A DNA stretch of 64,000 nt, from assembly GCA_002753505.1 (NCBI GenBank), contig PEAG01000001.1:62001-126000 (forward strand), given 5' to 3'. Below the pieces are notes generated by a model. The model was not told the DNA's origin and ran no database searches. It saw nothing but the letters and a program-made list of their open reading frames with translations. The first letter of the stretch is position 1, and every line of letters starts with the position of its first letter. The position numbers and the translations under genes were made by a program. Source of the stretch: Magnetococcales bacterium HCHbin5. GTDB taxonomy: Bacteria > Pseudomonadota > Magnetococcia > Magnetococcales > Magnetaquicoccaceae. Positions 7,315-29,725 of this stretch are shown piece by piece.

Positions 7315-7457
7315 CCTGCTTTTTGATTCGGCTCCTCGTGTTCTGTCCTACATCGGACGACAGGCCCGTCATGCCTTAAAAAAACGCAGTCCGGGATCTC
7401 GCAGAGTTGCCGGGAATGTTCCGGGATGTGCTTACCAGAGACGATCACTTGTATCAT

Positions 7458-8726
7458 TCACGTTGAACCAGCACGCTCTGGATTGGCCGCGTGAATGGTC
7501 AGTAGAAGTTCCGTGTTGTCAATCAGACGATATTCAGGCAACCGGCCAGAATTATGAAGGCTTTCCTCCATGATAATTGGCACACCATCACCACGTTTTT
7601 CCATAAAATATTGGCGTGTCAGATCTTCATCACTCTCATCGACTGGACAACGCGCCAGCAACGTTGTCAGCAATTCGTTTCGGGTTACTTGACGCAGGGG
7701 TAGACTGTCGATGGTAATCGTGTTGGGTAGTGTTCCCGGGGAATAGAGTTCAAGGCGGTTGTCAAACATGAAGAGCCGAATTTTCGACCCGGCAATGGAA
7801 TAATCCCGGTGCGCCACGGCGTTAACCACCGCTTCAAACACTGCCCTTACACTGAACTGGGGCAGTTCGACCCTGCCGGGCTGTTTGCTGGCTGCCACGG
7901 TCATGTTGCGGCGTACAAATCTCATGGCAAGCCTGATCTGTTCATCCAGGGGACCGTGGCACTCCAAGGCATCAAGCTGCTGATTGGAATCTTGCCGCGA
8001 TCCACGATAGCGAACAGCCATGATGAAGGCACTCGGCATCCATTGGACCGGTCTTCTGGAACACATCAGTATGCCAGAGACGGAGGTCCGTTCCGTGCCA
8101 TCGTCATCCGCTTTGAGCAGGCCCTGTTTGCGAAGGGTCGTCACCGGCTCAGCGATGTGTATGCCCAAAAATCGCTGCCACAGGGGTTCGTCCATATCGG
8201 ATAGCGAAGTTTCCGGAACGGGTTGTTCATCGAAGCGGATGAGTTGGGCTTGACTGCGCTGTTGAAGCAAACGGGACAACACAGGGGTATCCATCTCGCG
8301 TTTTGAACTGCCTTGGCGGTGAAAATATCCGCCAGGACTCTTGTGGACAAACAGACTGCGTGGAATTTCGACTTTCAAGATGGCTTTTGGCAATCCCATG
8401 GTGTCCGGCAGTTCCATGCGCAAGGAACGAAACAAAACAGGCGGTTTGACGCTCTCGTTGCACACTTCAAAGACATACCGTTCAACATCATCAAGATGCT
8501 GCCTGGAAAGGCCGATGATCTCCCGTGTTTTGTCGTCCACTCCAAAAACAATGACGGCGTTGGCCGTATTGGCCATGGCCGCAATCTCATCGGCCAAATC
8601 GGCGCGTGCAGGAGCCTTGACCTTGTTGCCCGCCATGACAACAGCCTTGAGTTCGAGAGAGGTATCCTCCCCCAGTTGGATTTTCCGAAGCAGCTCCTCC
8701 GCACTATCAAACACGTCGACCTCCAT
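7458..8726 (-). CDS. AlbA_2 (Schlafen-like) and HATPase_c_4 domain protein, RecG-like family
   Basis: A 422-residue protein of the family often labelled putative transcriptional regulator or RecG-like. The N-terminal 140 residues match the AlbA_2/Schlafen AAA_4 fold: EDTSLELKAVV, a small-residue helix ADLADEIAAMANTANAVIVFG, then VDDKTREIIG and YFHRQGSSKREM. Residues about 290-345 match the C-terminal HATPase-like domain: FEAVVNAVAHRDYSIAGSKI, then LELYSPGTLPN. No helicase motif is present, so RecG activity is unlikely. The gene overlaps the 3' end of the upstream PHP-SMC gene by 20 bases, which implies translational coupling and a joint function. Nucleic-acid binding is known for the fold; defence against phage is inference from the pairing. 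Confidence 0.8.
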   Translation of the reverse strand: MEVDVFDSAEELLRKIQLGEDTSLELKAVVMAGNKVKAPARADLADEIAAMANTANAVIVFGVDDKTREIIGLSRQHLDDVERYVFEVCNESVKPPVLFRSLRMELPDTMGLPKAILKVEIPRSLFVHKSPGGYFHRQGSSKREMDTPVLSRLLQQRSQAQLIRFDEQPVPETSLSDMDEPLWQRFLGIHIAEPVTTLRKQGLLKADDDGTERTSVSGILMCSRRPVQWMPSAFIMAVRYRGSRQDSNQQLDALECHGPLDEQIRLAMRFVRRNMTVAASKQPGRVELPQFSVRAVFEAVVNAVAHRDYSIAGSKIRLFMFDNRLELYSPGTLPNTITIDSLPLRQVTRNELLTTLLARCPVDESDEDLTRQYFMEKRGDGVPIIMEESLHNSGRLPEYRLIDNTELLLTIHAANPERAGST

Positions 8727-11460
8727 GAGCTATGCGGCGATAACGCCGTTCGAATGCCTCCTCGCCCCCCTCCATGATGCGACAAATTTCCTCACGGACC
8801 TTTTGTTCCTGCAAACTGCCTGTACAGGTTGGGTTGGTCTGATCATTGCTGACACCCAAGGCCATGACCAACTCCGCGTCACCATTGACCACAATGTTGG
8901 CATTATGCGTGACCACAATGACTTGGCGATTTTGCTTGATGGTTCTTAGTTGGGCCACAATCAGTTCATAGATCAATTGATTATCAAGATCGTCTTCGGG
9001 TTGATCCAGGATCAATGGTTCAGCGCCGTGCGACAGGAGAAAGGCGAGCATGGCCGCTGTTTTCTGTCCGGGTGACCCTGTGTGTATACTCTGAAATTTT
9101 TTCCCATTGCCGGAGCTACAGTAGCTCACATCCAATGCATCGTCTGGAAACCAGACATCCAGCCGATCCAATCGCTCAGGCGGCAATTCCCGTAATTTGG
9201 TGACAAATCTTTGATCCTTTGCGGTATATTCACTCTTTCCTGTGGCAGCGAGATCTCTGACAACCTGCTTCAGTTTGGCAACGCCATCCTCTGGATTTTT
9301 TTGCTCGATCAGCCCAATCAAACCATCCTTGCCAACTGTGCCGATATCCTTGTCAAATTTTCCTGGGTTGCAATCGATCAAACCGCGCAGACGCTCCTCG
9401 TACAGCTCAGCGTCTCCGAATCGTACCGCAGAAATTTTGACATATGGATTATTAGTCAACACCCTTTTGAGAAATTGACGGCGCATCTCTGTCAATGATC
9501 TGCGCGACGTCGCAAGATGAATCAATTTCTCGTCAGCCTGACGGCGCACCTCTTCCTGGAGTTTTCGCCGTGATTCCATGTCAACAAGTTGTTGCTCCAA
9601 GGTATGTCGTTGTTGGAGCAGTTTGCCGAACTCGTTGGGTTCTCCCGCTTTTTCTGCCCGGAGTTTGTTCCGCAAGGTTTCATATTTTTCTTCCGCATCA
9701 CGAAGGGTGGATTGCCATCTTGGGGCGAACTGTGCGGATTGCCAACGGTTCAAACAGGCATCGGCCTGTTCAGCCAACCGCGAGACGATACGCGAAATCT
9801 TTTCAAGGCGATGGAAAATATGGGAGGCTTCATCCATCGCCTCGTGGTCGGAGGTATCCTCTGGATCAAAAACAGTCTGGTCGATGGAAGCGGGAGTAAT
9901 CTCTTCTGCCATGGCCCGTAATTGGTCACCTGTACCAGACCATGAATCTTTCCATCCATTCAGGGATCGCTGTTGCTGCTTGCGATGTTGATAGACTTTC
10001 AAAATTTCGGCGTGTTCTGCCTGCTCGAAAGCAGCCAGACGACGTTTTACATCCAGCAATTCTCCCTTGATACGTTCCTCATCCTTTAACCCGGTCGCTA
10101 TTTCCCGTTCCTTGGCGCGCAACGACAGATAGGCCAATTCGGTTTCCCGCCAATTTTTTTCCCAAGTCCGGCGTTCATCTCCCAGAGCGTTATCAATGAT
10201 GTCCAGGAGTTTGCGTGGCGTCCTGGCAAACTCAAAAATCTGCTTCTGACTGAAAACCCGAACAGGAAACCGATCAGCGACAACCCCTTGTGTCGGTTGC
10301 CACACATCGGTTTCATCCATCGCGGAAAGAATTTCCTCCCCACCATGTGGTGTCCATTGGACGCGATAACGCCCGCCATCCTTGCGATATATGACCGTCA
10401 ACCGGGTGTCTGCGGTCAGCAGTCCATCATCCTGGCGTGTGTGTGCAACCTTGCTATACTTTTCAAGATCCTTCTTCAGGCTGTCGGGCCATTCGCCCTC
10501 TCGGCGCAGGGTCAAACGCAGAAATTCGGCCAGGGTTGATTTGCCGGTACCCCGTCCACCGATAATCGCATTCATCCACGGATTAAAACGGCACTCAAAA
10601 GGACTGGTGCGTCCCATATAGCGCGCCTTGTCCACGGTCAGGGATTCGATACACCATTGTCCATGTTCGTTTGGATTGATCCCCGAAAACTGGTCGGAAC
10701 GCTTAATGGATATCTTGCCATCCAGTAAAGCAAGTCGCACACCCTCCAGTGTTGGTTGTCCCATCTTGACCCAGGTAAAGTGGCTTCCTGGGCAACGCTC
10801 CCCGCTGGGGTGGTGGGCATCTGAACCTAACACTTCGGCCCAGTTTGTTTTTTTGTCAATATAGAGTTGCGGCTTTTGAATGTTTGGATCATGCACTTCC
10901 ATGGCAAAGAGATGCTCGCTGCCAATAACTGCTGACAGGGATTGCCCTTTTACTGCCTTGAAAAGTCCACTGTAATCTTCTGTATGGGCAGGGATGGCCA
11001 AACCACCCTGCCTGACGATCTCCTCAATAATCTCTACGGCCCCCTTTTCAGTGACACACTCCTGGCCATCCTTCGATGGGTAACCAACAGATCCCAACAG
11101 ATAATCAATATCTGTTTTTTTTGTTTTGATTGGATCAAACAACGCCAACAGGTGAAAACCGCCATTAACGGTCAATTCGACACCAGGGAACAGCACAAGA
11201 GGGCGAAATTCGTCCAATGGCTCGGATTCCATCTTCGACAATTCCTCTTTCAACTTGTCGATCCACGCCCCGGTATTGTGATCCGTGATGGCTACGCAAT
11301 CCACCTCAGCCCGCATAAAATCCAGCAACCACTCCCTTGGGGTGCGTTGCCGCAAGGTCTCTTGATCCGGCCCTTTCCCGTAATCATGCGATGCTGGCGT
11401 ATGGGCATGAAAATCAAACTTCCACCAACGGGCACCTGGCCATTGCCACATTGCATTCAT
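8707..11460 (-). CDS. PHP-domain/SMC-like AAA ATPase (TrlF-type)
   Basis: A 917-residue fusion. Residues about 13-270 form a PHP metal-dependent phosphoesterase: HAH at 18-20, ITDHN, GVEL, AHTEDYSG and GSDAHH supply the usual metal ligands. An ABC/SMC-type ATPase follows, with Walker A IIGGRGTGKSTLAEF near residue 300, a long coiled-coil-rich middle (about 430-700), a signature-like SPGQKTAAMLAFLL, and Walker B LILDQPEDDLDNQLIYEL near 815, then VVTHNANIVV. Cleavage of nucleic acid or nucleotide controlled by ATP is likely but the substrate is unknown. GGAGG precedes the start, and ATGA couples it to a broken ORF upstream. The AlbA_2 gene overlaps its 3' end. Sequence here looks more AT-rich than in neighbours, which suggests transfer. 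Confidence 0.85.
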   Translation of the reverse strand: MNAMWQWPGARWWKFDFHAHTPASHDYGKGPDQETLRQRTPREWLLDFMRAEVDCVAITDHNTGAWIDKLKEELSKMESEPLDEFRPLVLFPGVELTVNGGFHLLALFDPIKTKKTDIDYLLGSVGYPSKDGQECVTEKGAVEIIEEIVRQGGLAIPAHTEDYSGLFKAVKGQSLSAVIGSEHLFAMEVHDPNIQKPQLYIDKKTNWAEVLGSDAHHPSGERCPGSHFTWVKMGQPTLEGVRLALLDGKISIKRSDQFSGINPNEHGQWCIESLTVDKARYMGRTSPFECRFNPWMNAIIGGRGTGKSTLAEFLRLTLRREGEWPDSLKKDLEKYSKVAHTRQDDGLLTADTRLTVIYRKDGGRYRVQWTPHGGEEILSAMDETDVWQPTQGVVADRFPVRVFSQKQIFEFARTPRKLLDIIDNALGDERRTWEKNWRETELAYLSLRAKEREIATGLKDEERIKGELLDVKRRLAAFEQAEHAEILKVYQHRKQQQRSLNGWKDSWSGTGDQLRAMAEEITPASIDQTVFDPEDTSDHEAMDEASHIFHRLEKISRIVSRLAEQADACLNRWQSAQFAPRWQSTLRDAEEKYETLRNKLRAEKAGEPNEFGKLLQQRHTLEQQLVDMESRRKLQEEVRRQADEKLIHLATSRRSLTEMRRQFLKRVLTNNPYVKISAVRFGDAELYEERLRGLIDCNPGKFDKDIGTVGKDGLIGLIEQKNPEDGVAKLKQVVRDLAATGKSEYTAKDQRFVTKLRELPPERLDRLDVWFPDDALDVSYCSSGNGKKFQSIHTGSPGQKTAAMLAFLLSHGAEPLILDQPEDDLDNQLIYELIVAQLRTIKQNRQVIVVTHNANIVVNGDAELVMALGVSNDQTNPTCTGSLQEQKVREEICRIMEGGEEAFERRYRRIAHGGRRV

Positions 11461-11607
11461 TGTCTTTCCTCCACCCGGTTCACCGCCTGATCACGCCATA
11501 GGATCAGTTTGGGCTCTTCCTGGAGTACATTCTCCGGGATTTTTTTTTGCTACTTGGACTATGGTGGAAAAATCTCTGGCGGGAACGTACCAGCACTCCT
11601 TGGCCAT
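11457..11607 (-). pseudogene. Small ORF broken by one base at an A9 run, overlapping the PHP-SMC start
   Basis: On the minus strand, ATG at 11607 opens MAKECWYVPARDFSTIV and runs to the A9 tract (T9 at 11540-11548 on the plus strand). If that tract had eight bases, the frame would continue as KKIPENVLQEEPKLIL and end in NRVEERQ with TGA at 11459-11457, giving about 49 residues. That stop overlaps the PHP-SMC ATG as ATGA, the usual coupling of operon neighbours. The frame may extend upstream to about 11658. I do not recognise the family. It could be a decayed third component, a sequencing error at the homopolymer, or a slippage-dependent gene. Confidence 0.45.
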
Positions 11608-11767
11608 TCCTTGCAAACAGAGATCGTTCTTCCACAGATTGTGTAATAATTTTATTGATCATACCGAGCCATCCTGTCCAGGGTTTATGTGGTGTCTTCT
11701 GGAATTACGTGCGGCTTACGTGCATGAACGCTTGTAATCCGGGACGGTAAAGCGGTTTACAGACTGT

Positions 11768-12556
11768 TCACGGCTGGTCCTTGCCCACCAGAACAAACGG
11801 TGCCCAGTAATAGGGATGCCGCCAGAGGGGGTGGCTGATGAAGGTCTGTTGCGTGGCTTGCAGGGCCTCCTGTGGGGGGGTACCACGGAGAATATGGCTG
11901 TAGAACGCCTGCATGAAGGCCATGGTGACGTCGTCGCTGATGCTCCAGAGGGTGGAAAGGACGGCTTTGGCACCGGCCTCCTGGAAGGCACGTTGCAGGC
12001 CATAGACCCCTTCCCCATTGCGCACATCGCCAATACCGGTCTGACAGGCCGACAGCACCACCAAATCGGTACCGGCCAGGTTGAGATTGACAGCTTCACC
12101 GGCAGTCAGGATACCATCGGTACCGTCGCTTTGCTTGATTCCCTGCACACCGGCATTGGCTCCGGCAAAGGCCAGACCGGCACGGTTCATGGGATCGGCG
12201 ATCACCAGCACAGCATCCTTGGTGGTGGGAGTGGTGGCCGACCGGGGGGATACCGGTGTGGCTGTCGGCAACGGACTCTCCGACGGCTCCGTTGGCTGTA
12301 TCAGGGTGTCAAGAAAAAAGCCGTGCGTCGCCAGATGCAGAATCCGGGGGGCTGCGAGCGCGCTGATTGCCTGTTCACTGGCAGCAGTATCGGTCAGCAG
12401 CATGGGTTGCACCTGCTGTTGCCGCAAGAGTTCAATCAGCGTGTTGCCCTCCTGCAGAGTGCCGGGCAAATAGTCGAAAAAAAATGTCGGAAAGACGTAT
12501 CCCACTGGTGCGCGTACTGCGTTTGCCCTCCCCGGTCGACTTCTGCAAGCCGACAA
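11768..12556 (-). CDS. CHAT-domain catalytic part, downstream half of a frameshifted TPR-CHAT gene
   Basis: This frame encodes the C-terminal part of a CHAT (caspase HetF-associated with TPRs) protease domain. Its homologous part starts only at the T8 run near 12484 (FDYLPGTLQEGNTLIELL); roughly the first 24 residues upstream are probably not translated. The expected catalytic pair is present: His in ILHLATHGFF (about 12310-12340) and Cys in LVVLSACQTGIG (about 12040-12065), followed by GLQRAFQEAGAKAVLSTLW and the terminal HPYYWAPFVLVG typical of CHAT ends. Removing one T from the T8 tract fuses it in frame with the TPR gene upstream. Alone it would lack the N-terminal part of the CHAT fold. 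Confidence 0.75.
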   Translation of the reverse strand: MSACRSRPGRANAVRAPVGYVFPTFFFDYLPGTLQEGNTLIELLRQQQVQPMLLTDTAASEQAISALAAPRILHLATHGFFLDTLIQPTEPSESPLPTATPVSPRSATTPTTKDAVLVIADPMNRAGLAFAGANAGVQGIKQSDGTDGILTAGEAVNLNLAGTDLVVLSACQTGIGDVRNGEGVYGLQRAFQEAGAKAVLSTLWSISDDVTMAFMQAFYSHILRGTPPQEALQATQQTFISHPLWRHPYYWAPFVLVGKDQP

Positions 12557-15500
12557 AATAGTCCGGCGCGGCCACCACGACCGGCGCGGTGCCTGTACCA
12601 GTCAGGGGGTGCAAAACCAGATCCCGCGCTGTGGAGAGGGTAACAAGTCGGGTGGTTTCTCCCACATATCGCCCTTGGGTGTCCATGAGTGCTTTGAAAG
12701 GCAGCAGATGCAGGGCACCATCCGGTACCAGGTAAACCTTCTGCTTGTTCGCCAGCAAGGGCACCAGGGGTTGCCAGAGCGCAGCGTGCAACGCCTTGGC
12801 CGTACTATCCATGACCGTACCGGCGGCGGTCTGTTCCATGCTTTCCCGATAGCTTTTGATCAATGTTGCGATTGGCTCCAGCGGACCGATGGTGACCAGA
12901 CGCATGCTGGGCGTGGCCTGCGGATCCGTTACGACAGCCATCACCTGCCATGCTTTATAGCCGTTCAGCGGCAGATCGACCGCGTGAAACAGCAAAAAAT
13001 CCACCAATACTTCACCAGGCTGTAATGCCGCAACGACCTGCTCTGGCTCTACACGTTGCCGGTTGCGCCCCAGGATCTGTACCTCCCTGCCCAATTCGGC
13101 TTCCAGGTCATCGATCTGCTGCTGCAGTTGTACAAGCCGTGTCTTGTCTGTCATGCCGCCAAACTGCCATTGTGCCGCAGTTTTTTTTCTGCTCGCCAAG
13201 CTCTGTGCCTTTTCTCGCAGGGCTGGTTGGGCGGCACTGTGGGTGACGGCATTGACCTCTGCGGCCACACGCAGCAACAACCCCTTTCGACGCAGGGAGT
13301 AGAGCATCGCCTCGCGGGCCATGGCATCATCCGCCAACTGGGAGAGAACCGTCAAATACAGATCGATATTGTATGTACTCTGACTCAGGTAAGCCTGACG
13401 GCTTTTTTCGCTGGCACCCCAAAGAACCCGTTCCAGCAATGCGTCGGTGCTACGCATGTTGCGTGTCAACCAGGTCATGGCCTGACGGGGTTGCTGCCGC
13501 AGCAACTCCAGTGTGGCCAGGTTACTGAGTATGCTTGCCGTATTCGGGTGATCCGCACCCCACCGCCGTTCCAGAATATCCAAGGCGCGATGCAACAAAG
13601 GTTCGGCCTTGGCCAGATGCTCGGCTGTGGCACTGTCGATGTAGAGCGACTGGTACAACCCCGCCAGATTGTTCAAGCTGATGGCAACTTGTGGGTGTTG
13701 CGGACCCAGAACATGTTCCTGTATCGCCAGGGCGCGTCGCAACAGAGGCTCCGCTTCGGCATGCCCTCCCCGTTTGGCCTGCAAGCTGCCCAGACTGCTC
13801 AGGCTGTTGGCGACGTCGAGATGTTGTGGTCCCAGACTCTTTTCCCGGCTCGCCAACACCCGCTTATGCAAGGCGATCGCCACGTCGGTAAAACCTTGTG
13901 CGCTCAACCACACTGCCATGTTGTTCTGTATGGAGAGTACTGTTTCATGCTCCGGTCCGTACGCACGCTCAAAGATGGCCAGCGCGCGTTCATAAAGGGG
14001 AATGGCCTGCTCCAGGCGACCTTGCGTCTGGTACAGGGAGGCCAGATTGTTCAACGTGACAGCCACATCCGGATGATCTTTTCCCGCCCGTTGTTCCTGA
14101 ATTGTCAGGGCACGTTTGAAGAGGGGCTCGGCCTGCTCGTAACGACTCAGCCTCTTGTACAGGAAAGCGAGGTTGTTCAGGGTCAGTGCCACGTCGGGAT
14201 GATCGGGTGTCAGATTTTTTTCCCGGATGGCCAGGGAGCGTACATACAGTGGCTCCGCCTCCTCATACCGCCCCTGCAACTCGTACCATGAGGCCAGATT
14301 GTTCAACCCGATGGCCACATTGGGGTGGTCTGGACCCAGGCGTGCTTCCCAGATGGTCAGTACACGCCGCTTCAGTGTCTCCACTTGCTCATGCTGGCCT
14401 TGCGCCTCATAAATCCTGGTCAGATTGTTCAGGCTGATCGCCACATCGGGATCGTCCGGTCCGAGAACACGCTCCCGAATCTCCAGAGCCCGTTTGGACA
14501 AGGGTTCCGCTTCGGCATATTGACCCAGCCCTGCATACAATGCTCCCAGATTGTTCAGGGTCAATGCCACATCGGGATGCCCGGGCCCGAGTTTTGTTTC
14601 TCGAATGGCCAGGGCACGCTGATACAACGGTTCCGCCCGCTTGGACTGGCCACGATCACTGTAGACCGCTGCCAGGTTATGCAGTACCCGCGCCACTTCA
14701 AGATGCTCTGTACCATACGATTTTTCATAAATATCCAAGGCGCGATTCAACAGCGACTCTGCCTTGGCGAACTGCTGTTGCTCTTTGTACATCACCGCCA
14801 GATTGTTCAGGGTCAGCCCGACTTTGGGATGCTGTGGACCGTAGATTTTTTCCAGCCTGGTCAGAGTGCGGTCGTGCAGGGCTTCTGCTTTGGCACTCTG
14901 TCCCTGTTCTTTGTACACAACCGCCAGATTGTTCAGGATGGTGGTCAGGTTGATTCCTTTGCTCTCCTGGTCGGATTTCTCACTTTTTTCACATATGGCA
15001 AGGGCACGTTCCAAGGCAGAGGCGGCCTTGGCATAGTCGTGCCGTTTGGCATATGCGTGCCCCAGCAGGCCGAGTGGATCAGCCAGATCTGCATGCTCTG
15101 GGCCATGAAGCTGCTCCAACATGGCCACCGCACGTTCAAACAGTGTTACAGCTTGGTCATACTGGTTTTGTGCGCGTGATACCCCCCCTGCGTCTACGAG
15201 GAGTTGAGCTATGTAGGGATGGTTTGGACCGTATCGCTTCTCCTGGATGGCCAGGGCACGTTGCAAGGCGGCTTCCGCCTGTTCATGGTGCTCGGATGCG
15301 AAGTGAATGGCACCCAGGAGGCGCAAGCCGACGGCCAACTTTTCGTCATCCGGGCCGTACTCCTTCTCGACAATGGCATTGAATCGCTCCATGGTCTGTT
15401 GGGCATCCGAATATCGTTGCAGTCGATGCAGCGTTGTGCCCAGGCTGAGCAACGTGTTGAGTATCGGTTTTTCCCTTTTGTATCGCTGCTCCTGCAGTAC

Positions 15501-17717
15501 CAGAGTACGGCGCAATAAAGGTTCGGCCTCGGCGGGGCGATCGTACTTGTTGTAGAATTCTGCCAACTCCTCCAGCAGCTCTTTCACGAGAAAGCTGTCC
15601 TGGCCGAACATTTTTTCGTTGAGTTCCAGGGCACGTTTAAACAGCGGCTCTGCCAGCTCCGCCTGCTGGCGCGCGTTGTACAGTTGTGCCAATTCGCGCA
15701 TGGCATAGGGACTCTCCTTGATGGCCAATACCCGCTGGTAGAGTGTCTCTGCCTCCCCTGGGCGGGCTTGCTTGACGTATACCCGTGCCAGCATGAACAG
15801 GGTGTCGGCTACATCGTCATGTTTCGGGCCTGATGTTTGCTCCCTGATGTTCAAGAGACGCAGGTAGTGGGTTTCCGCCGCTGCCCACTGCTCCCGGTCT
15901 GTCGCCAACTCGGCCAGTTTCTGCACGACGTCGGCAAGGCGGTGACGACTGTTCTGGCCACCCTTGTCCAAAATGGTCAATGCCCGCTGGTACAATGCCT
16001 CTGCCTTGGCATGCTGCGCGCGGTCCGGACGGTACACATCTGCCAGCTGGGTGATGGCAAGGGTGATTCTGGGGTGATCGGGACCATATTGCTTTTCCCG
16101 GATGCGCAACGCCTGCTCATACAGTAACGCAGCTTGTGTATCTTGATGGTTCCGCTGATGAAACTTGGCCAGCGTGATCAACGTTCCGTACACCCTGGGA
16201 TCCTCGGGGCCAAAAGCCTGCTCCTCGATACGCAGGGCACGCATGTAGAACGGCTCCGCCTTCTTGTCGTCAAATCGATCGACATGATGTCTCGCCAGTT
16301 TCATCAGACTGGCAACAACAGCTGGGTGTGAGGGGCCATAAGCGGCTTCTGCTGCGGTCAGGGCATGCAGAAAGGTCTGTTCCGCTGCATCCGGGTGGTG
16401 ATCCCTGTTATGGTAGGCTGCCAGTGCATGCAGGGTTTCAATCACTTCGGGATGATTGGCACCCAGATCGCGTTGCTGCCGCTCCAGCAGGTCACGATAG
16501 ATCTGTTCCGCCTGCTGGAACTTGTAGTGGGAGAGTGCCAAACTCGCCAGTTCATGCCAGCGCAGCACGACCTGAGGATGATGAACGCCGAGTATCTTTT
16601 CCTGAATCGTTACGGCACGTCGATAGAGAGGGATCGCTTCATCAGGTCGGCCTTGCTGGTTGATCACCTGGGCCAGGTTGTATACGGTCGCGGCGATATG
16701 GGGATGCTGGGCCCCCAGGGCTTTTTCGAACAAGGCCAACACGCGCCTGAACAGGTTTTCCGCCTGTTCCGACTGTTGCTGTTGTCCATGCAGCCATGCC
16801 ACCAGATCCAGCATGAGAATGACATCGGGATGTTCCGGTCCCAGCAGCTGCTCAAATCTGGCCAGGGTCGTCGTCGCCAGCTGCAGGGCCTCTTTGGTCG
16901 CCGCAGCCAATTGCGCGGTATCGAGTGAGTTGTTCTGTAGTGGTTGCAGGATCTCCTGTCGTTTCTGCTGCAACGCCTCCTGCAATGCCCGCTGCGGGGC
17001 CATGGCGGCAAAGGCCTGGCGCATCCATGCCCGTTCGCATGCGGCCTGTTCTGACTGCCAACCGTTTTTGGCGAACAGAACAAAATCGGCTTCCGGACCC
17101 TCCACGAACGCCTGCTCCGATTTCAGGAGCGGTATGCTCTTCTCATAGTATGTGCGGGCCGTTGCCGCATCGCCCAGCAGAAGATGCGCATGTCCCAGAT
17201 TGACTGTCACCGACATTTGCCAGGGATCCAGTGCGTGCCCGCGCTGCAACACATCACGGGCCTCCGCCCATTGTCGGGCCAGAACAAGATACCACCCCAA
17301 CGTGTTGAGGCCGGCGATGTTGGCCGGAGCCAGTGCCACGACCTGCCGTGCATCCGCCAGCGCATCCGCGAGCTGATTTTGTTGTTCCCAACACTGTGCC
17401 CGTTGCAGGTAGGCTTCACTGTACTGGGAATTTCTGGCGATGGCCTGAGTCAGCAGCGTGATGGCGCGGGGACAATCCTGTTGTTCCCTGGCTTTGATAC
17501 TCTGTTCCAGCAACTCTTCGAGCGCGGGCAGTGGTTCCAACGGTAGCGTTGGAGAGGATGCAGGGGGGCCTGACGGTATGGTATGAGGCTGGGGTGCTGG
17601 CGCAGCAACCGTTACAGGTTGCGAGGATGGCTCTTCGGCCTGGAGGCAGCGAGTGCCCGTCCATGTAAACAGACATACAACCAGGGTGGTTCCCGTGACC
17701 TTGAATGCGTGCAGCAT
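12432..17717 (-). CDS. Giant TPR protein with N-terminal part of a CHAT domain; frameshifted before the catalytic dyad
   Basis: About 1,761 residues. A signal peptide is likely (FKVTGTTLVVCLFTW, cleavage near LQAEE), which would place the product in the periplasm or outside. More than twenty tetratricopeptide repeats of the kinesin-light-chain type follow, 42 residues each, with units such as LGPDHPDVALTLNNLAFLYK and AEPLFKRALTIQE. From about residue 1,500 the chain enters a CHAT domain (VYLVPDGALHLLPFKAL), but the frame ends soon after the T8 run at 12477-12484, before the catalytic His and Cys. ATG at 17717 is preferred over the adjacent GTG because GGGAGAGG lies at better spacing. Known CHAT proteins are caspase-like proteases cleaving partner proteins; no obvious substrate gene is adjacent. 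Confidence 0.8.
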   Translation of the reverse strand: MLHAFKVTGTTLVVCLFTWTGTRCLQAEEPSSQPVTVAAPAPQPHTIPSGPPASSPTLPLEPLPALEELLEQSIKAREQQDCPRAITLLTQAIARNSQYSEAYLQRAQCWEQQNQLADALADARQVVALAPANIAGLNTLGWYLVLARQWAEARDVLQRGHALDPWQMSVTVNLGHAHLLLGDAATARTYYEKSIPLLKSEQAFVEGPEADFVLFAKNGWQSEQAACERAWMRQAFAAMAPQRALQEALQQKRQEILQPLQNNSLDTAQLAAATKEALQLATTTLARFEQLLGPEHPDVILMLDLVAWLHGQQQQSEQAENLFRRVLALFEKALGAQHPHIAATVYNLAQVINQQGRPDEAIPLYRRAVTIQEKILGVHHPQVVLRWHELASLALSHYKFQQAEQIYRDLLERQQRDLGANHPEVIETLHALAAYHNRDHHPDAAEQTFLHALTAAEAAYGPSHPAVVASLMKLARHHVDRFDDKKAEPFYMRALRIEEQAFGPEDPRVYGTLITLAKFHQRNHQDTQAALLYEQALRIREKQYGPDHPRITLAITQLADVYRPDRAQHAKAEALYQRALTILDKGGQNSRHRLADVVQKLAELATDREQWAAAETHYLRLLNIREQTSGPKHDDVADTLFMLARVYVKQARPGEAETLYQRVLAIKESPYAMRELAQLYNARQQAELAEPLFKRALELNEKMFGQDSFLVKELLEELAEFYNKYDRPAEAEPLLRRTLVLQEQRYKREKPILNTLLSLGTTLHRLQRYSDAQQTMERFNAIVEKEYGPDDEKLAVGLRLLGAIHFASEHHEQAEAALQRALAIQEKRYGPNHPYIAQLLVDAGGVSRAQNQYDQAVTLFERAVAMLEQLHGPEHADLADPLGLLGHAYAKRHDYAKAASALERALAICEKSEKSDQESKGINLTTILNNLAVVYKEQGQSAKAEALHDRTLTRLEKIYGPQHPKVGLTLNNLAVMYKEQQQFAKAESLLNRALDIYEKSYGTEHLEVARVLHNLAAVYSDRGQSKRAEPLYQRALAIRETKLGPGHPDVALTLNNLGALYAGLGQYAEAEPLSKRALEIRERVLGPDDPDVAISLNNLTRIYEAQGQHEQVETLKRRVLTIWEARLGPDHPNVAIGLNNLASWYELQGRYEEAEPLYVRSLAIREKNLTPDHPDVALTLNNLAFLYKRLSRYEQAEPLFKRALTIQEQRAGKDHPDVAVTLNNLASLYQTQGRLEQAIPLYERALAIFERAYGPEHETVLSIQNNMAVWLSAQGFTDVAIALHKRVLASREKSLGPQHLDVANSLSSLGSLQAKRGGHAEAEPLLRRALAIQEHVLGPQHPQVAISLNNLAGLYQSLYIDSATAEHLAKAEPLLHRALDILERRWGADHPNTASILSNLATLELLRQQPRQAMTWLTRNMRSTDALLERVLWGASEKSRQAYLSQSTYNIDLYLTVLSQLADDAMAREAMLYSLRRKGLLLRVAAEVNAVTHSAAQPALREKAQSLASRKKTAAQWQFGGMTDKTRLVQLQQQIDDLEAELGREVQILGRNRQRVEPEQVVAALQPGEVLVDFLLFHAVDLPLNGYKAWQVMAVVTDPQATPSMRLVTIGPLEPIATLIKSYRESMEQTAAGTVMDSTAKALHAALWQPLVPLLANKQKVYLVPDGALHLLPFKALMDTQGRYVGETTRLVTLSTARDLVLHPLTGTGTAPVVVAAPDYFVGLQKSTGEGKRSTRTSGIRLSDIFFRLFARHSAGGQHAD

Positions 17718-17823
17718 CACCCTCTCCCGTCAGTGAATTTTGTTGAAACGTCCAGGTCATTATCCGAAGGTCTGGTTGCGCGAGGTCTGAAACAGGATGG
17801 GTATGCTGGTGGGTGCATCGGTG

Positions 17824-18495
17824 TTATTCAAAGCGTCCGGTGGAGATAAACTGGTAAACCATCCGGCTGGCCGTCTCGGAAAAAAGCAGCCCCATATGCA
17901 CAACCGGCAAAACCCGGTGCGCCGTGGCTCCGTCCAGGTAGGTTTCGGAGACGGCTATGGTGCCGTCGTTGGCCTCCCCTATACCCCAGAGCTTGCGCCC
18001 CACCCCCAACAGGGAACGATTGCCGGCCAAAATGCCAATCTCCCGCCCCGGCGGGGCGGAGGTCAAACCGCCCCCTCCCAGGGCACCGCTGAGACTCCGG
18101 CCCAGAATGACACGTCCCCAACTCCACTGGGCTATCTTTTTGGCCGCCACATTGCCCCGAAACGGTGTGCCCATGGCAACCATGCGGCCAATGCGGGCCT
18201 GCGGATAGCGATGCAACATTTCCAGCGCAACCATTCCCCCCAAACTGTGGCAGACCAGGTGAGGTTGGCCCGAGGGCGCGTTGCACATCTGGGGGCCAAA
18301 GTGCTGCTCCAGAAACTGCCACAGCTGCTGACTGCTCTCCGCCACACTGGCATGAACCGTGTGATACCGAAAGGGCAACGTCTGGTATCCCCACTGCCGT
18401 AAACGCTGGGCCAACCATCGCATCTCGGTGCCATTCATCCAAAGACCATGCACCAATACCACCGTTGCCTGTGGGTCCGAGTGACCGTTATGCAT
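17824..18495 (-). CDS. Alpha/beta-fold hydrolase (PGAP1/lipase-like)
   Basis: A 223-residue alpha/beta hydrolase. The oxyanion-hole region reads VVLVHGLWMNG near residue 15. The nucleophile elbow is CHSLGG (a GxSxG variant with Cys first) around residue 83, followed by MVALEMLHRYP. The catalytic His is probably in LPVVHMGLLFS near residue 205, and an acidic residue in NDGTIAVSETY would complete the triad. There is no signal peptide, so a cytoplasmic esterase or lipase is likely; the substrate cannot be predicted. It lies upstream of the TPR-CHAT gene on the same strand, about 100 bases away, so they may share a transcript. Confidence 0.82.
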   Translation of the reverse strand: MHNGHSDPQATVVLVHGLWMNGTEMRWLAQRLRQWGYQTLPFRYHTVHASVAESSQQLWQFLEQHFGPQMCNAPSGQPHLVCHSLGGMVALEMLHRYPQARIGRMVAMGTPFRGNVAAKKIAQWSWGRVILGRSLSGALGGGGLTSAPPGREIGILAGNRSLLGVGRKLWGIGEANDGTIAVSETYLDGATAHRVLPVVHMGLLFSETASRMVYQFISTGRFE

Positions 18496-21297: not shown

Positions 21298-24285
21298 ATG
21301 GGATTTTTTAGTTTTCTGTTCAAAAGCAAGAAGGTTGAACCGGTCAAGCAGGCAGATAAACTGGAGAATGCTGAAACCCAGTTCAAATTGGGTATGATGT
21401 TTAGCCAAGGCCAGGGGGTTCCCCAGAACGACCTGGAGGCCATCAAATGGTTTCGGAAGGCGGCAGAACAGGGGCACCCCGTCGCCCAGGTAAAACTCGG
21501 GGTGATGTTCAGTCAAGGCCAGGGCGTGGACCAGGATAGCCGGGAGGCGATGCGTTGGTTCCAAAAGGCGGCGCAACAGGGGAATGTCTGGGGCCAGTTC
21601 AATATTGGGGTGATGTACGAGAAGGGCCAGGGGGTTGAGCAATCCCATGAAGAGGCGGCCCAATGGTATGCCAAAGCGGCGGAACAAGGGTGTGTGGAGG
21701 CCCAGTTTTTGTTGGGCTTGGGCTATGCACTGGGGCAGGGCGTGCCGCAAGAGGATGTGACGGCGGTCAAATGGTATCGTGCGGCGGCCGAACAGGGGGA
21801 TGCCAATGCCCAGTACAACCTGGGCCTGATGTACCAGCAAGGCAGAGGGGTTGCCCAGGATGACAATGAGGCGGCCCGTTGGTGTCGCAAGGCGGCCGAA
21901 CAGGGGCTGGCAGAGGGACAATCTGCGCTCGGGCTGATGCATGAATATGGCAAAGGGGTGCCCCAGGACTATTCGGAAGCGGTGCGTTGGTATCGCGCGG
22001 CGGCTGAACAGGGCTATGTCAAAGGCCAGCTCCTGCTGGGCGTGATGTATGAACGGGGCAAAGGGGTGGCACAAGACTTTGCGGAAGCGGTTCGTTGGTT
22101 TCGTCAGGGAGCGGAGGGAGGGGATCCGATTGCCCAACTGACGTTGGGGGTGATGTACGAGCGCGGTAACGGGGTGCCACAGGATATGGCGACCGCACTG
22201 CAGTGGTTTGGAAAATCAGCGGATCATGGCCATGCCAGTGCCCAGTTCAAGCTGGGGGGGCTTTACATGCTGGGCAAGGGGGTAGCCGTTGACTGGACGG
22301 AGGCGGTGCAGTGGTACCGCAAGGCGGCGGAACAGGGCCATGCCAAGGCCCAGTCCAATCTGGGGCTGATGTACAAGTTTGGCAAAGGGGTGGCCCAGGA
22401 TGACCAGGAGGCGGCCCATTGGCTGCTCAAGGCGGCCGAGCAGGGGAACGCGGAGGGGCAATTTTTGCTGGCCGGGCTTTATGAAGCCGGCAACGGGGTC
22501 TCCAAAGACCATAACGAGGCGGTGAACTGGTACCGCAAGGCGGCAGAGCGGGGCCATGCCAAGGCCCAGTCTGCTCTGGGCATGCTGTATGAGTTTGGCA
22601 GAGGCGGGCTTCCCCAGGATCACAAAGAGGCGGTGAGCTGGTACCGCAAGGCGGCGGAACAGGGGGACAGCAAAGGTCAGGTGTTGCTGGGGGTCATGTA
22701 TGAGCGCGGCAAAGGGGTTGCGCAGGAGTATACACAGGCGGTGAGCTGGTACCGCAAGGGGGCCGAACAGGGGGATGCCATCGCGCAACTGACCCTGGGG
22801 ATCATGTACGAGCGGGGCAACGGTGTTGACCAGGATGATGCCACGGCGTTGGAATGGTTTCGTCGATCGGCTGCCCAGGGTCATGCCAGCGCGCAGTTCA
22901 AGTTGGGTGAGATGTACACCCTCGGCAAGGGGGTGGAGATCGACTTTCATGAGGCGGTGAACTGTTACCGCCGGGCAGCGGAGCAGGGCCATGCCAAAGC
23001 CCAGTCCACCCTGGGCATGATGTACAAGCTGGGCAAAGGGGTGGCCCAGGATGAAACAATGGCGGTACACTGGTTTCGCAAGGCGGCGGAGCAGGGGAAT
23101 GCGGAGGGCCAGACCCGTTTGGCGCAGGTGTATGAATCCGGCCAGGGGGTGTTGGCAGATTATCAGCAGGCGGTGGATTGGTATCGCAAGGCGGCGGAAC
23201 AGGGCCATGCCAGCGGGCAGGAACGTCTTTGGCTGCTGTACAAGAGTGGCAAATGTCTACCCAAGGATGACAAAGAGGCACTCAATTGGTTGCGAAAAGC
23301 GGCCGAGCAGGGGGATATAACGGGCCAACGGCGGCTTGGTCTGATGTATGAAAAGGGCCAGGGCGTACCCAAGGATGAGCGTGAGGCGGCGTATTGGTAT
23401 CGCAAGGCGGCGGAACAAGGGGATACGACCGCTTTGCGCTATCTGGGCATGATGTATGAATTTGGCCAGGGTGTTTTCAAAAACGAGAAAGAGGCGGCGA
23501 ACTGGTATCGGCAGGCGGCCATGCAGGGGGATGCTGTTTCCCAGCGCAAACTCGGGTTGATGCACAAAAATGGTCGCGGTCTGCCCAAGGATGAGGTGAA
23601 GGCGGTGGATTGGCTGCAAAAAGCGGCGGCACAGGGCGATGCCATCGGCCAACGCTGCCTGGGGACCATGTACGAATATGGCCAGGGAATTGCCAAGAGT
23701 GATACCGCTGCGGTCGACTGGTATCGGAAAGCGGCCGAGCAGGGGGATGTCATCGGTCAGCGATTCCTGGGGATGATGTACGAGTATGGCCAGGGGGTAA
23801 GCCCGGATGAGACAGAGGCCGCCAACTGGTACCTGAAGGCGGCGGAGCAGGGAGATGCCATTGGCCAGCGACGTTTGGGAATACTGTTCGAGAAAGGCCA
23901 AGGGGTTAACAAGGATGAGGTGCGCGCGGCAAGCTGGTACCTGAAGGCGGCGGAGCAGGAGGACGCAGTCGCCCAGCGAAAATTGGGCCTGCTGTACAAG
24001 AATGGCCGTGGGGTACCCAGGGATGAGCAGGCTGCGGTGAACTGGTTTCGCAAGGCGGCAGAGCAGGGAGACCTGTCGGCACAGATCAACCTGGGGGCAC
24101 TTTACGAGCGTGGGGCAGGGGTTGCGCGGGATTATGTCCGGGCCTACATGTGGTGGAGTCTGGCGGCAGCCCAAAGGGATCCGGATGCCATCCAATATCT
24201 CGAGGAGATTGCCAAAGAGATGACCCCGGCCCAACTGGTTCAGGCACGGGACATGGCCTCCAACTGGAAGTTGACCAACTCATGA
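21298..24285 (+). CDS. Sel1-repeat protein with 26 tandem repeats
   Basis: A 995-residue solenoid of 26 Sel1-like repeats of 36 residues, with the core A-Q-x-x-L-G-x-M-Y-x-x-G-x-G-V and [10 protein letters not shown]. The N-terminus [18 protein letters not shown] lacks a cleavable signal; a short hydrophobic-basic stretch might touch the membrane. The C-terminus ends with a capping unit ([19 protein letters not shown]). Repeats 6-11 and 12-17 match as two six-repeat blocks (21925-22572 and 22573-23223), the second with one extra codon. Sel1 proteins act as scaffolds for protein complexes; the partner here is unknown. AGGGGAG precedes the start. Its stop codon overlaps the convergent kinase stop (TCATGA). 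Confidence 0.93.
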
Positions 24286-27057
24286 CGGGTTGTCATGGGG
24301 GGGCGGTTGTTCAGCACGCCAAAGCGTATCGATGGCAGCCAACACCTGCCTGGCGGTGGCAAAATCAAACTGCTCAAGGGCTGCTTCCAACTCTGTCATT
24401 TTTTGAGCGGTGGAACTCCCTTGGAGGGATGGCTTGAGGGCAAAAAAACAGGCCAACGCCTTCCCGTTGTTGCTTTGCAGGAGAAAGCCCAACTCGTCGA
24501 TCAACTCCCGTGTTCTTGCCGGTGTTGCAGCGACCGCATCGGATGATTTTGTCTCCCGCTCCAGTCGTTCCAGTCTCTGTTCCTGTTCGATCTTCTGTAT
24601 TGTTTCCAACAGAGGCGTCAGGACCTGCTCCATATGGTCCAGCATCTGCGGCCAAATCTCTTTCTGATTGTTCTTGATGGCCTCTTCAAGGAGAGTCGCT
24701 GCTCTGTGGAGTTCCAATGCGGAAATGTTCCCCGCTACGCCTTTGATCGAGTGCAGCAAACTTTTGGCAGTCAGCAAGTCATCCTGCCGTTTTCCAGATA
24801 ACGATGTGCGAACTTTGTCGGCAGACGAAGCAAAATGGCGACCGGATTCCAGCAGGAGAGAACGAAACAGATCATGATTGCCTCCCAGACGTTCCAATCC
24901 TGCCATTACGTCAATACCAGGCAAAGAGAGTGGCAATTTCCAGCCATTCGGGTCCATCGGCATCCTCTCCTGGGTGGGTACATGGACTGGCCCGGGCCGC
25001 TTTCCCGGCTGAATCCACCGCAGTAGTGCTGCATAAAGCTGTTTACGGTCGATTGGCTTGGTGATGTGGTCGTTCATACCCTGGGAGAGAGATTTTTGCC
25101 GATCTCCATCCATGGCATGGGCCGTCATGGCAACGATAGGCAGGTCGTTAAAACGGTTATTGCCCCGCATCTGGCGGGTTGCCGCATAGCCATCCATGAC
25201 AGGCATCTGAATGTCCATGAAGACCAGATCAAACGGCATGTCCAGTGCCATCCGGGTCGCCTCCAGCCCATTGTTGGCTACCGTTACCCGCAATCCCACC
25301 TGTTCCAGCATCTCCCGGGCGACCTGCTGATTGATCAGGTTGTCTTCCACCAGTAAAATCCGGGCACCGCCAATCTGCTCGACAACCGCTCTATGATCGA
25401 TACCAGGCAGCTCTGCGCCTGCATCCCGGACAACGTTTTCCCCCAGTACATTCACAATGGCATCAAACAGGCGGGAACGGGTAATGGGCTTGCTGAGAAA
25501 GGTGGTTATCCCCGCCTGTCTGGCTTGTGGTACCAGATCCTCTTCCCGTGCAAAAGCGGATAACAGGATTATCTTTGGAGCCGTGTTCTGTTTCAGCTGC
25601 GAGGAGTAGTCCGTAATCTGTTGAGCGGTTTCAATACCATTCAGTTCCGGCATCCGATAGTCCAACAGCACCAGCGGATAGGGAGTGCCCGCATCGATCG
25701 CCCTGGCCATTTCCGTCACCGCCTCAGCTCCGGTTGTTACCAGGACGGGCTGAAAGCTGAAGGAGCGCAACATGATATTAAAAATTTCCAGCGCAATGGT
25801 GTTGTCATCAACGACCAACACGGGTAGGCCTTTCAACGAAACAGGGGGTGTGATGCGGAGTTGTTCCGATTTTGGTCGTTTCTTGAAGGCAGCGGTGAAC
25901 CCAAACAGTGAACCGCACCCCGGCTCGCTCTCCACCCATATCCTTCCCCCCATCAACTCAACCAGTCGTTTACAGATGGAGAGCCCCAATCCGGTGCCAC
26001 CATATTGACGGGTTGTGGAGTTGTCGGCTTGGACAAAGGGCATGAACAGGCCATCCATTTGCGCCCGCGTCATCCCAATACCGCTGTCCCGTACCGTGAA
26101 TATCAGTACGACAAGATCATCATTTTCTGTTAGTTGCTGAGCGGTTGTGGTGTCAGATCGATTCTGTTCCACAGTAAGCCAAACCTGTACTGTCCCATGT
26201 TCAGTAAACTTGAGAGCGTTACTGATCAGGTTCATCAACACCTGCTCAAGGCGAAAGGAGTCCCCCCGCAGGGCTGTGGGACAGGTCGGATCCATACCCA
26301 TGACCAGCTCCAGTTTTTTTTCATTGGTCTGTTCCCGGAACATGTCAGCCAAATTTTCACAAACCCGCGTCAGCTCAAAATCGGTGGATTCAAGGCTTAT
26401 CTTGCCCGCTTCAACCTTGGAAAAATCCAGTATATCATTGATGATATGCAACAATGATTTGGATGCGTTGGCAATCTTGGCAAGATAATCACGCAGCTTG
26501 GGCGACATGGAGATGGAGAGTGCCAAATCGGCGAGACCGATAATGGCATTCATGGGTGTACGGATCTCATGGCTCATGTTGGCCAGAAATTCCGATTTGG
26601 CAAGGTTGGCCAACTCCGCGGCATCCTTGGCCATTCCCAGCTCTCTTGCCATGTTTTCCATCTCATCCCGTTGCCGTTTCAGTTCCAGATGGTTTCTCAC
26701 CCTGGCCGCCACAACAGTGGGATGAAACGGCTTGGTGATATAGTCGATGGCTCCAAGGGCCAACCCCTTGGCTTCATCATCGCCTGCATCTCTGGCTGTC
26801 AAAAAAATGATGGGTATCTCATGAGTGTCTGGATCGGCCTTGAGTCGCGAGCAGACCTCGTAACCATCCGGTTCGGGCATCCCAATATCCAACAGGATCA
26901 AGTCAGGTTGGTAAGCCGTGACTGCCTGCAGAGCCTCTTGTCCATCTGTGGCCACCGCCAACTCATAGTCGGAGGCCAGCATGTCCACCAACAGTTGAAT
27001 GTTGCCTGGTGCATCATCCGCAATCAAAATCTTCGGCTTTGCAGATAAACCTGTCAT
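24280..27057 (-). CDS. Soluble hybrid histidine kinase: REC-HisKA-HATPase-REC-REC-Hpt
   Basis: A 925-residue cytoplasmic hybrid kinase with no membrane segment. Order: receiver (KILIADD, phosphoacceptor in [13 protein letters not shown]), coiled linker, HisKA ([20 protein letters not shown]), HATPase ([35 protein letters not shown]), second receiver ([20 protein letters not shown]), third receiver ([30 protein letters not shown]), and an Hpt domain ([12 protein letters not shown]). GGGGAGA lies upstream of the ATG at 27057. It starts 10 bases after the stop of the membrane kinase, so the two are co-transcribed. The N-terminal receiver probably takes input from the partner kinase. No DNA-binding or enzymatic output domain is present. 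Confidence 0.92.
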
Positions 27058-27067
27058 TCTTTCTCCC

Positions 27068-29725
27068 CTACAAAGCAATATTCAACTTTTGGGCGATTGC
27101 CAGCAAGGAAGCATTGGCCTCCTTGAATTTGAACCGTTCAATCTGTTCCGTCATCTGTGTCACCTCTTGATCCAACCCACACTGCAACAACAAGGGCTTG
27201 GCGGCGAGGAAGGCAGCGGTTGACCCGATGCTGAAACGTGACAAATGATCAGACAGCTCCAGCACTACCGATTGCAACACTTTTGGGTCCAGGGGGGGGA
27301 TGGCTTGCGGGGTGTTCCTCTCCTCCTCCGGATTTGTTGCCGTTGTGCTGGCAATAGCGCGCAGAGTAACAATGGTAGTCAATATCTCTCGCAATGTCAC
27401 CTCAAACCGTTCCGTCAAAGCGGGCCACTCGGATTCGCGACCTTGCTCAATGGCCAATTCCAACTGGCGAGCGGCATCCAGCACAACCTCCGCCCCAATA
27501 TTGCCGGCAACCCCTTTGACCTGGTGGACCTTTTTTTTCGCCAGCTCGGGCTTCTGGTTGGCAAAGGCTTCACGTACCTCTGCCGCCACATTGGTGTAGT
27601 CCCGTGCGAAAGTTGCCAATAATTTCATGAACAACGCCTGATTGTTCATCAGCCGGAGTAGTGCGGATGCCCTGTTGAGACCGGGAGTGGCCATCGGATC
27701 TGTCGGGAGTGGTGGTACAGAACCTGGTCTGTACAATAGACGCTCCCGATCAACCGGTTCTCGCCGACCTGGTTTGATATGGGTCATCAGCAGCGAAAAA
27801 AACTGCTCGGGATCAATAGGTTTGCACAGGTGATCCTCCATGCCGGCTGCCAGTGATTTTTCCCGGTCGCTGTTCATGGCGTGGGCGGTCATGGCAATGA
27901 TGGGAAGTCGGGCAAAACGGGGATCTTGCCGAATGGCCCGCGTTGCCTCATATCCGTCCATGACCGGCATCTGGATATCCATCAAGACGGCATCATAATG
28001 GGAGTCCATAACCTTCTGTACCGCCTCTGCCCCATTACCGGCTACATCCACACGGATACCCACCCCTTCCAGCAGCTCTCGGGCTACCTGTTGGTTGATG
28101 GGCATGTCCTCAACCAGCAGGATCCGACTCCCGCCGATATGATGGATAATATTTTCATAATCAATGACGCTTGCAGGCGTCTCAACCCGACCCGAATTGG
28201 AATATTTTCCACAGACAATGGTGAAATGGAAACAGGATCCCTTCCCCGGTACGCTCTCCACCCCAATGCTGCCTCCCATTAAAGCCACCAGGCGTGCACA
28301 GATGGAGAGACCCAGCCCACTGCCACCATATCTTCGGGTGGTGGAGCCATCTGCCTGGACAAAGGGGAGAAACAACCCGCCTATCTGTTCCTGAGACAAA
28401 CCGATGCCGCTGTCGCGCACAGAAAATGCCATGACCGCAAGATCGGGAGGCGGGAGCAGCACCGCCTCTGCTGCGCAGTGGAATGGTGGCTGGGCAGGTT
28501 CCGCTGGCTGAGTCGTAGCAGCCCGGACATGGACACTCCCCTGATCGGTAAATTTGATTGCATTGCCGATCAGGTTCATCAAAATTTGCTCCAGTCGCAA
28601 GACATCCCCGCAGAGTGCCAGGGGACAGTCCTGGGCGAGTTCCAGTATCAATTCAATATTCTTGTCCGCAGCCTGATTGTGGAACAGATCCGACAGGCGA
28701 TCAAAAAGATCATCCAGGTAAAAGGGGGTCCGCTCCAGCGTCAGTTTTCCCGCTTCAATCTTGGAAAAATCCAGTATGTCATTGACAATCCGAAGCAGGG
28801 AAGCGGAGGCCGTGCGCATTTTGGCCAAATAGTCCTGAATCTTGGGATGTGTATTATGCTTGAGTGCCAAATCGTTCAGACCGATGATGGCGTTCATGGG
28901 GGTGCGGATCTCATGGCTCATATTGGCCAGAAAATCGGACTTGGCCCGCGTGGCCCGTTCCAGATCGGCCCGCTGACGGGCCAGATCGGTAGCCATTTGC
29001 TTGACTGTCTGCGCCAATTGACCAATTTCATCCTGGGAGTAAATGCCTATGGGTATGTCAAAACGGCCTTTGCCGATTTCAATGGTTGACAGTCGCAAAG
29101 ATTCAATGGGAATGGCGATCAGCCTCTGCAGTCGGTAGGCCAGGATAAAGGCCAACAACAACGAAAAGGAAAGAATGCCAAGCATCAGCAGTGCATTGGT
29201 GAGCAGCTGGTTTTGCAACTCCGCCAAATCGGAATGAATGACAATGGTGCCCAGTTTTTCCCCATCCAGCAGGACCGTCTGCTGCAGGATCAGGTTATTG
29301 CCCTCGTAAAGGGCGGAGTGTTCCTGGAAACTCGGTGGTTTTATAAGGTTTTCTGTCGCCAATCCAGGGTCAGGTCGGATAAAGGTGGCGAAGGGTTTCC
29401 CGTCATTGGTGAACAGAACGGCTGCATGGATGGATGGATTGACCCTCAGGGCCTCCAAATTTTTCTGGGCTGTCTGTGGATCATTGAATACCATGGCTGC
29501 ACGGCTATTGAAGGCAACAATTTCCATTTGTATGCCAACACTTTTTTCCAGATCTTCCCGCTCTTGTAAATAGGAAACCACAGAAAGGGAGATGGCTGTC
29601 AGTAGCAAGGTTAAACCACTGAGCAATACCATCATGAAAACCATTTTTTTTCTGATGGATAAGTCTATGAATCTCAAGTTTGTGTTCCTATTTGATAACC
29701 TGCCCGATCTGTAATAACGCCGCAT
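27068..29725 (-). CDS. Membrane hybrid histidine kinase: CHASE8-like sensor-HAMP-HisKA-HATPase-REC-Hpt
   Basis: An 885-residue inner-membrane kinase. TM1 is about residues 28-53 ([20 protein letters not shown]). The periplasmic loop (about 54-170) resembles CHASE8: [20 protein letters not shown], then [22 protein letters not shown]2 (about 175-200) leads to HAMP, HisKA ([20 protein letters not shown]), HATPase ([29 protein letters not shown]), a receiver ([30 protein letters not shown]) and Hpt ([14 protein letters not shown]). The start at 29725 overlaps the yfiR-like gene by 38 bases; a later TTG near 29680 is an alternative. CHASE8 is the sensor type of YfiN, which YfiR controls, so the upstream YfiR-like protein is a likely periplasmic regulator. 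Confidence 0.9.

Follow-up and report, generated by a model that had tools for sequence, protein, structure and literature searches.

A mobile TrlF-Schlafen gene pair in Magnetococcales, a candidate two-gene relative of the anti-phage exonuclease Ppl

In the genome of Magnetococcales bacterium HCHbin5, two overlapping AT-rich genes raise the question of what kind of system they form, whether they travel together, and what they might do. We analysed a stretch of 64,000 nucleotides around them (contig PEAG01000001.1, positions 62,001 to 126,000; hereafter the window). A first-pass annotation made from the letters alone had proposed a candidate defence cassette at 7458-11607, with Menshen as the first comparison.

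Two overlapping genes and their products

Both reading frames are intact and lie on the minus strand, and they overlap by the 20 bases that the first-pass annotation had given (Table 1). The upper limit of 11607 had to be withdrawn. It lies outside the gene, with coding starting at about 11460 and the remainder intergenic, because the trlF frame is open for only 927 aa from stop to stop, which takes in ten codons upstream of the ATG. The overlap makes translational coupling of trlF and the Schlafen gene likely, and TrlF-Schlafen overlaps of 17-22 bp were also found in distant pairs (19 bp in two distant plasmid pairs). The pair had been described as more AT-rich than its neighbours, and in the within-window comparison it was indeed the most AT-rich 4-kb stretch, with a GC content of 0.515; none of 260 same-sized window segments outside the pair was as low (mean 0.561, sd 0.017). 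No RNA families were found in 5-20 kb of the window, and promoter and terminator scans gave matches no more numerous than in shuffled sequence.

Table 1. Positions in the window of the gene pair, its domains and motifs, and the surrounding insert.
Feature	Position	Strand	Basis
trlF gene, TrlF/Ppl-family, 917 aa, ATG start	8707..11460	minus	NCBIfam NF045780, PADLOC Ppl
PHP (CehA/McbA-type) domain, residues 11-254	10699..11430	minus	profile match and ligand pattern
Walker A GGRGTGKST, residues 301-309	10534..10560	minus	alignment
ABC signature SPGQK, residues 796-800 (SPGQ 796-799)	9061..9075	minus	alignment
Walker B and catalytic Glu PLILDQPEDDLDN, residues 815-827 (LILDQPEDDLDN, 816-827)	8980..9018	minus	alignment
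Overlap of both reading frames, 20 bp	8707..8726	minus	ORF coordinates
Schlafen/AlbA_2 and HATPase_c_4 gene, 422 aa, ATG start	7458..8726	minus	Pfam PF04326, PF13749 above cut-off
Schlafen (AlbA_2) domain, residues 20-146, putative RNase triad E20, E25, D65	8289..8669	minus	Pfam and PDB-profile alignment
HATPase_c_4 (GHKL-like) domain, residues 313-406	7509..7790	minus	Pfam
Segment absent from congener G065 (L093), containing the pair and the TPR-CHAT gene	7315..17826		flanking genes directly joined in G065

Judged by its sequence, the larger product belongs to the TrlF family and has diverged from its relative, the anti-phage exonuclease Ppl. It matched the TrlF model NF045780 with 613.6 bits (cut-off 350), residues 9-910 aligning to positions 2-943 of the 944 in the profile, and the search against defence-system models that had been proposed as a check returned PADLOC Ppl with an E value of 1e-147. 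Against the Ppl equivalog NF042955 it scored 575.7 bits, under the cut-off of 1000, which sets the window protein apart from Ppl proper and allows for a different trigger. Identity to an E. coli plasmid Ppl was 31% (alignment A1).

The first reading of this protein as a PHP phosphoesterase fused to an SMC-like ATPase with intact Walker A and B was borne out, with the motifs all present. The N-terminal region matched the CehA/McbA metallohydrolase model, which is of PHP type, with an E value of 4e-13, below the model's cut-off. All nine positions of the HHDHEHHDH pattern are kept (H18, H20, D60, H61, E95, H103, H159, D214 and H216), and we take these to be the PHP ligands from the known motif pattern. 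SMC_N/AAA_21 matches lie near the C-terminus. In the Walker A motif R303, G304, G306, K307 and S308 were invariant across 14 relatives, and H852 of the ATPase is intact. A PDB sequence search with TrlF gave no match, and structure models of both proteins, built from five-sequence alignments, were poor, with mean pLDDT values of 38 and 40. A TrlF-like ATPase of 647 aa that has no PHP domain is also present in the window's genome (L003, contig C3 of G000), and similar TrlF-like ATPases are present in other genomes of the order.

The smaller product matched SLFN_AlbA_2 (PF04326) with 62.2 bits (cut-off 25.3) and HATPase_c_4 (PF13749) with 61 bits (cut-off 26). The AlbA_2 domain named in the first-pass annotation is thus present, but its description as a nucleic-acid-binding fold fell short, as this is a Schlafen domain carrying the residues of an RNase catalytic triad. 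Schlafen RNases such as SLFN14 and SLFN13 have a catalytic triad of three acidic residues. A PDB profile search with the N-terminal part of the window protein returned SLFN14, SLFN8, SLFN5, SLFN11 and SLFN12 (best E value 1e-12). The segment ESTHVEFK...GVDDK of SLFN14 aligned with EDTSLELK...GVDDK of the window protein, which places the triad at E20, E25 and D65, and the same three residues also aligned with SLFN8. With all three acids in place, the window Schlafen protein is a putative RNase. The domain scan found no C-terminal HTH or wHTH in this protein, in which only about 16 residues follow the HATPase_c_4 domain and leave no wHTH there. A reading of the protein as a transcriptional regulator was rejected because the HTH is absent.

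Recurrence, mobility and genomic context of the pair

The first-pass annotation had held that the lack of any tendency of the two genes to occur together would speak against a cassette. A search of 398 genomes of the phylum yielded 27 full-length TrlF loci. A Schlafen gene lay directly downstream on the same strand at 17 of these loci (15 of 16 in the window's order), and all window-type loci had an overlapping Schlafen gene. The window's own genome has one SLFN_AlbA_2 gene, which overlaps the only full-length TrlF gene. On plasmids, most homologues of the Schlafen protein adjoin an annotated TrlF gene, and among the close homologues nearly all overlap it, with pairs in Klebsiella, Escherichia, the Pseudomonas syringae group and Yersinia ruckeri, conjugative plasmids included. 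One pair variant was present in 38 of 5,426 complete E. coli genomes, mostly on the chromosome, and in the two E. coli records inspected (one chromosomal and one plasmid copy) the pair lay in a Tn7-like element together with a type I R-M system. TrlF on viral contigs was mostly solo, with one pair (L104). Solo TrlF proteins are common, a close relative on a plasmid (L040, 49% identity) among them; the Schlafen partner is hence not essential to every TrlF.

Schlafen-GHKL homologues were also found on two Bacteroidota plasmids (L135 and L136), one of these genes being broken up and the other standing in an unannotated record. On an Arcobacter plasmid (L045:5732-12445), a Schlafen-GHKL protein of the same kind has a DUF87 (HerA-like) ATPase as its partner, with type I R-M genes on both sides; judging from this, the RNase appears to be a building block that combines with different ATPases.

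Housekeeping genes had been assigned to both sides of the pair in the window, and this was right for one flank, which holds ilvD (by sequence), a tsaC-like L-threonylcarbamoyladenylate synthase gene and a 161-aa gene present in 42 of 48 genomes of the order. The other flank holds a TPR-CHAT gene. In the congener G065 the pair and the TPR-CHAT gene are both missing and homology resumes a few bases past the stop codon; nothing convincing was found in the way of repeats at the ends of the insert. The congener G141 has a TrlF that is 90% identical at another place, and at the window's site it carries an OPT-type transporter gene (read from sequence). The eight window-type loci in Magnetococcales (the window and seven others) have no flank gene in common. 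The pair is therefore mobile, as the eight unrelated sites and the empty site in G065 show.

We considered the TPR-CHAT gene as a third component and rejected it. We found it beside none of the other seven window-type pairs, although it lies inside the segment missing in G065. This caspase-like gene (11768-17720, minus strand) is split into two frames, 12432-17720 and 11768-12556, whose overlap contains a run of eight T at 12477-12484; the split comes either from a genuine frameshift or from an error in the MAG sequence. In the congener G089 a gene that looks like a tyrosine recombinase, as judged from its sequence, follows the conserved 161-aa gene (L090:4941-5969), so this spot may be an insertion hotspot. 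Further along the window, a 995-aa protein with 25 Sel1 repeats (21298-24285, plus strand) is encoded beside two hybrid histidine kinases (24280-29725).

A survey of the neighbours of homologues, as had been suggested, placed some pairs inside BREX or R-M operons. In the congener locus L046 the pair is embedded in a BREX operon that also encodes BrxC, PglX, the BrxHII helicase and PglZ. Other pairs have HsdS (L047), a type IIG enzyme (L054), or an Eco57I-type methylase with AIPR (L063) close by, and a Cap4 nuclease is encoded near one solo TrlF gene (L056). No BREX genes turned up in the scan of neighbouring genes in the window, and the BREX linkage was seen only in the relative L046. With its recurrent pairing and with relatives inside BREX and R-M operons, the proposal of a mobile, defence-associated two-gene cassette was upheld, and the context makes a function of the pair in defence highly probable. 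Two side observations concern other TrlF genes. In one type I R-M operon a solo TrlF gene separates hsdS from hsdR (L055:5941-14715), and a diverged TrlF-Schlafen pair in a sister genus (L050 and L052, in G045 and G073) lies downstream of recD and an apparent recB, which might hint at surveillance of RecBCD.

We built a tree of 61 TrlF sequences. The window protein and E. coli Ppl (L066) fell together in a supported clade of 21, and the pairs fell in three well-separated clades and one long-branch row. The partner was gained or lost at least five times, against about 18 with shuffled labels, a difference that mainly reflects clade structure. When the active sites of 22 paired loci were compared, both sites were kept in 10 of 10 pairs of the window's wider clade and both were altered in the other 12, in which Lys, Gln or Glu replaces the last PHP His and the Schlafen triad lacks Glu25 or Asp65. 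This joint change is an observation on few clades, made with no statistical test and on an alignment that is gapped around Asp65 in the altered clades. Because both sites are altered in other paired clades, the function that the pairs share need not rest on both nucleases.

Comparison with described systems

Ppl is a single-gene anti-phage system, reported to be a PHP 3'-5' ssDNA exonuclease; bound NTPs keep its PHP and NTPase domains inactive, nucleotide depletion during phage infection lifts this block, and free 3' ends are required (PMC12904381). The window TrlF resembles Ppl in having PHP and ABC/SMC-like ATPase regions over its full length, with every catalytic position kept. It differs in its second, overlapping Schlafen gene, a neighbour that the inspected Ppl locus does not have, so that the window locus is not a single-gene system, and in its score below the equivalog cut-off. 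The match to the TrlF family NF045780 is full-length and above the curated cut-off, whereas that family takes in solo and paired forms alike. A literature search found no described function for members under the name TrlF. As a system, the pair is of the Ppl/TrlF kind but new in its two-gene form.

Two further reports bear on the pair. A two-gene cluster of a 'putative RNA-binding protein' and an 'AAA-like ATPase' was described near RptR and between hsdS and hsdR, and was mentioned only as a module without known function (PMC12255303). Its product names are the RefSeq names of the plasmid homologues of our pair, and like these it is embedded in type I R-M operons; matched by product names alone, it is probably the same module. 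Proteins that join a Schlafen RNase to a minimal histidine kinase and a wHTH are reported to act as backup suicidal effectors beside BREX, and as auxiliary effectors of related systems too (PMC12839542). The window protein has the same order of a Schlafen and then a HATPase domain, and a related pair occurs within BREX in L046. However, the window protein has no wHTH tail, its partner is TrlF and its site is without BREX.

The likeness to the eukaryotic Schlafen RNases SLFN14, SLFN8 and their relatives consists in the aligned motif ExxxxExK...GVDDK. This domain is all that the proteins have in common, the remainder being unrelated. Menshen, the comparison offered first, was rejected. It shares an ABC-type ATPase component, and a single match of 17.2 bits to NsnB over the ATPase stretch was obtained, but its DUF262 gene and predicted OLD nuclease (PMC10952713) were not found at the window locus.

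Candidate function and rival explanations

We read the pair as a mobile anti-phage module in which a Ppl-like sensor-nuclease is combined with a Schlafen-type RNase as a second effector, and put the probability of this reading at about 0.55. As in E. coli Ppl, the ATP- or NTP-bound ABC/SMC-like ATPase of TrlF would probably keep the N-terminal PHP 3'-5' exonuclease inactive. Phage infection, by lowering nucleotide pools and exposing DNA 3' ends, would then render the exonuclease active. The Schlafen protein, probably translated in coupling with trlF and so made in coupled amounts, would most likely be the second effector, an RNase and by analogy a tRNase. Freed through its GHKL-like domain or through contact with TrlF, it would stop translation and abort the infection. 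That both nucleases are active and both are needed is a tentative extension of this scheme. Equally tentative is a two-effector immunity in which the ATPase-gated PHP exonuclease hits DNA, the coupled Schlafen protein hits tRNA, and phages that evade one arm trigger the other. A Schlafen antiviral RNase domain would on the two-effector reading have been joined several times to a sensor of DNA ends and nucleotide pools.

The main rival is that TrlF alone provides defence, as a relative of Ppl, and that the Schlafen-GHKL protein is its regulator or antidote, which senses nucleotides, or represses or releases TrlF, without being a second toxin. Solo TrlF/Ppl genes are widespread and Ppl works as a single gene, the pairing was gained or lost several times on the tree, and in two clades the RNase triad of the partner is no longer complete, a loss that a regulator could bear. 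Yet the triad is kept in every partner of the window's wider clade, and the C-terminal HTH expected of a transcriptional regulator is absent; we consider this explanation rather unlikely. A toxin-antitoxin-like or element-stabilising module that does not target phages would fit a short overlapping two-gene operon carried on conjugative plasmids and Tn7-like elements. It is made improbable by proteins that are neither small nor TA-like, by relatives embedded in BREX and R-M operons, and by a closest studied relative that is anti-phage (PMC12904381). That the two genes are a housekeeping pair for DNA repair or RNA processing is less probable still: the housekeeping flank in the window and the related clade downstream of a recD gene (L050) would agree with it, whereas the patchy presence, the eight unrelated sites, the empty site in the congener, the low GC and the defence-operon contexts all argue against it.

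Until now Ppl has counted as a one-gene system, and the Schlafen-kinase proteins of bacteria as auxiliary BREX effectors. The TrlF-Schlafen pair recurs and is mobile, with copies in Magnetococcales, on conjugative plasmids and in 38 complete E. coli genomes. It would link the sensing of DNA ends and nucleotide pools to an antiviral RNase domain like the one in humans. A role would thereby also be assigned to two genes that a 2025 paper (PMC12255303) appears to leave as a module without known function.
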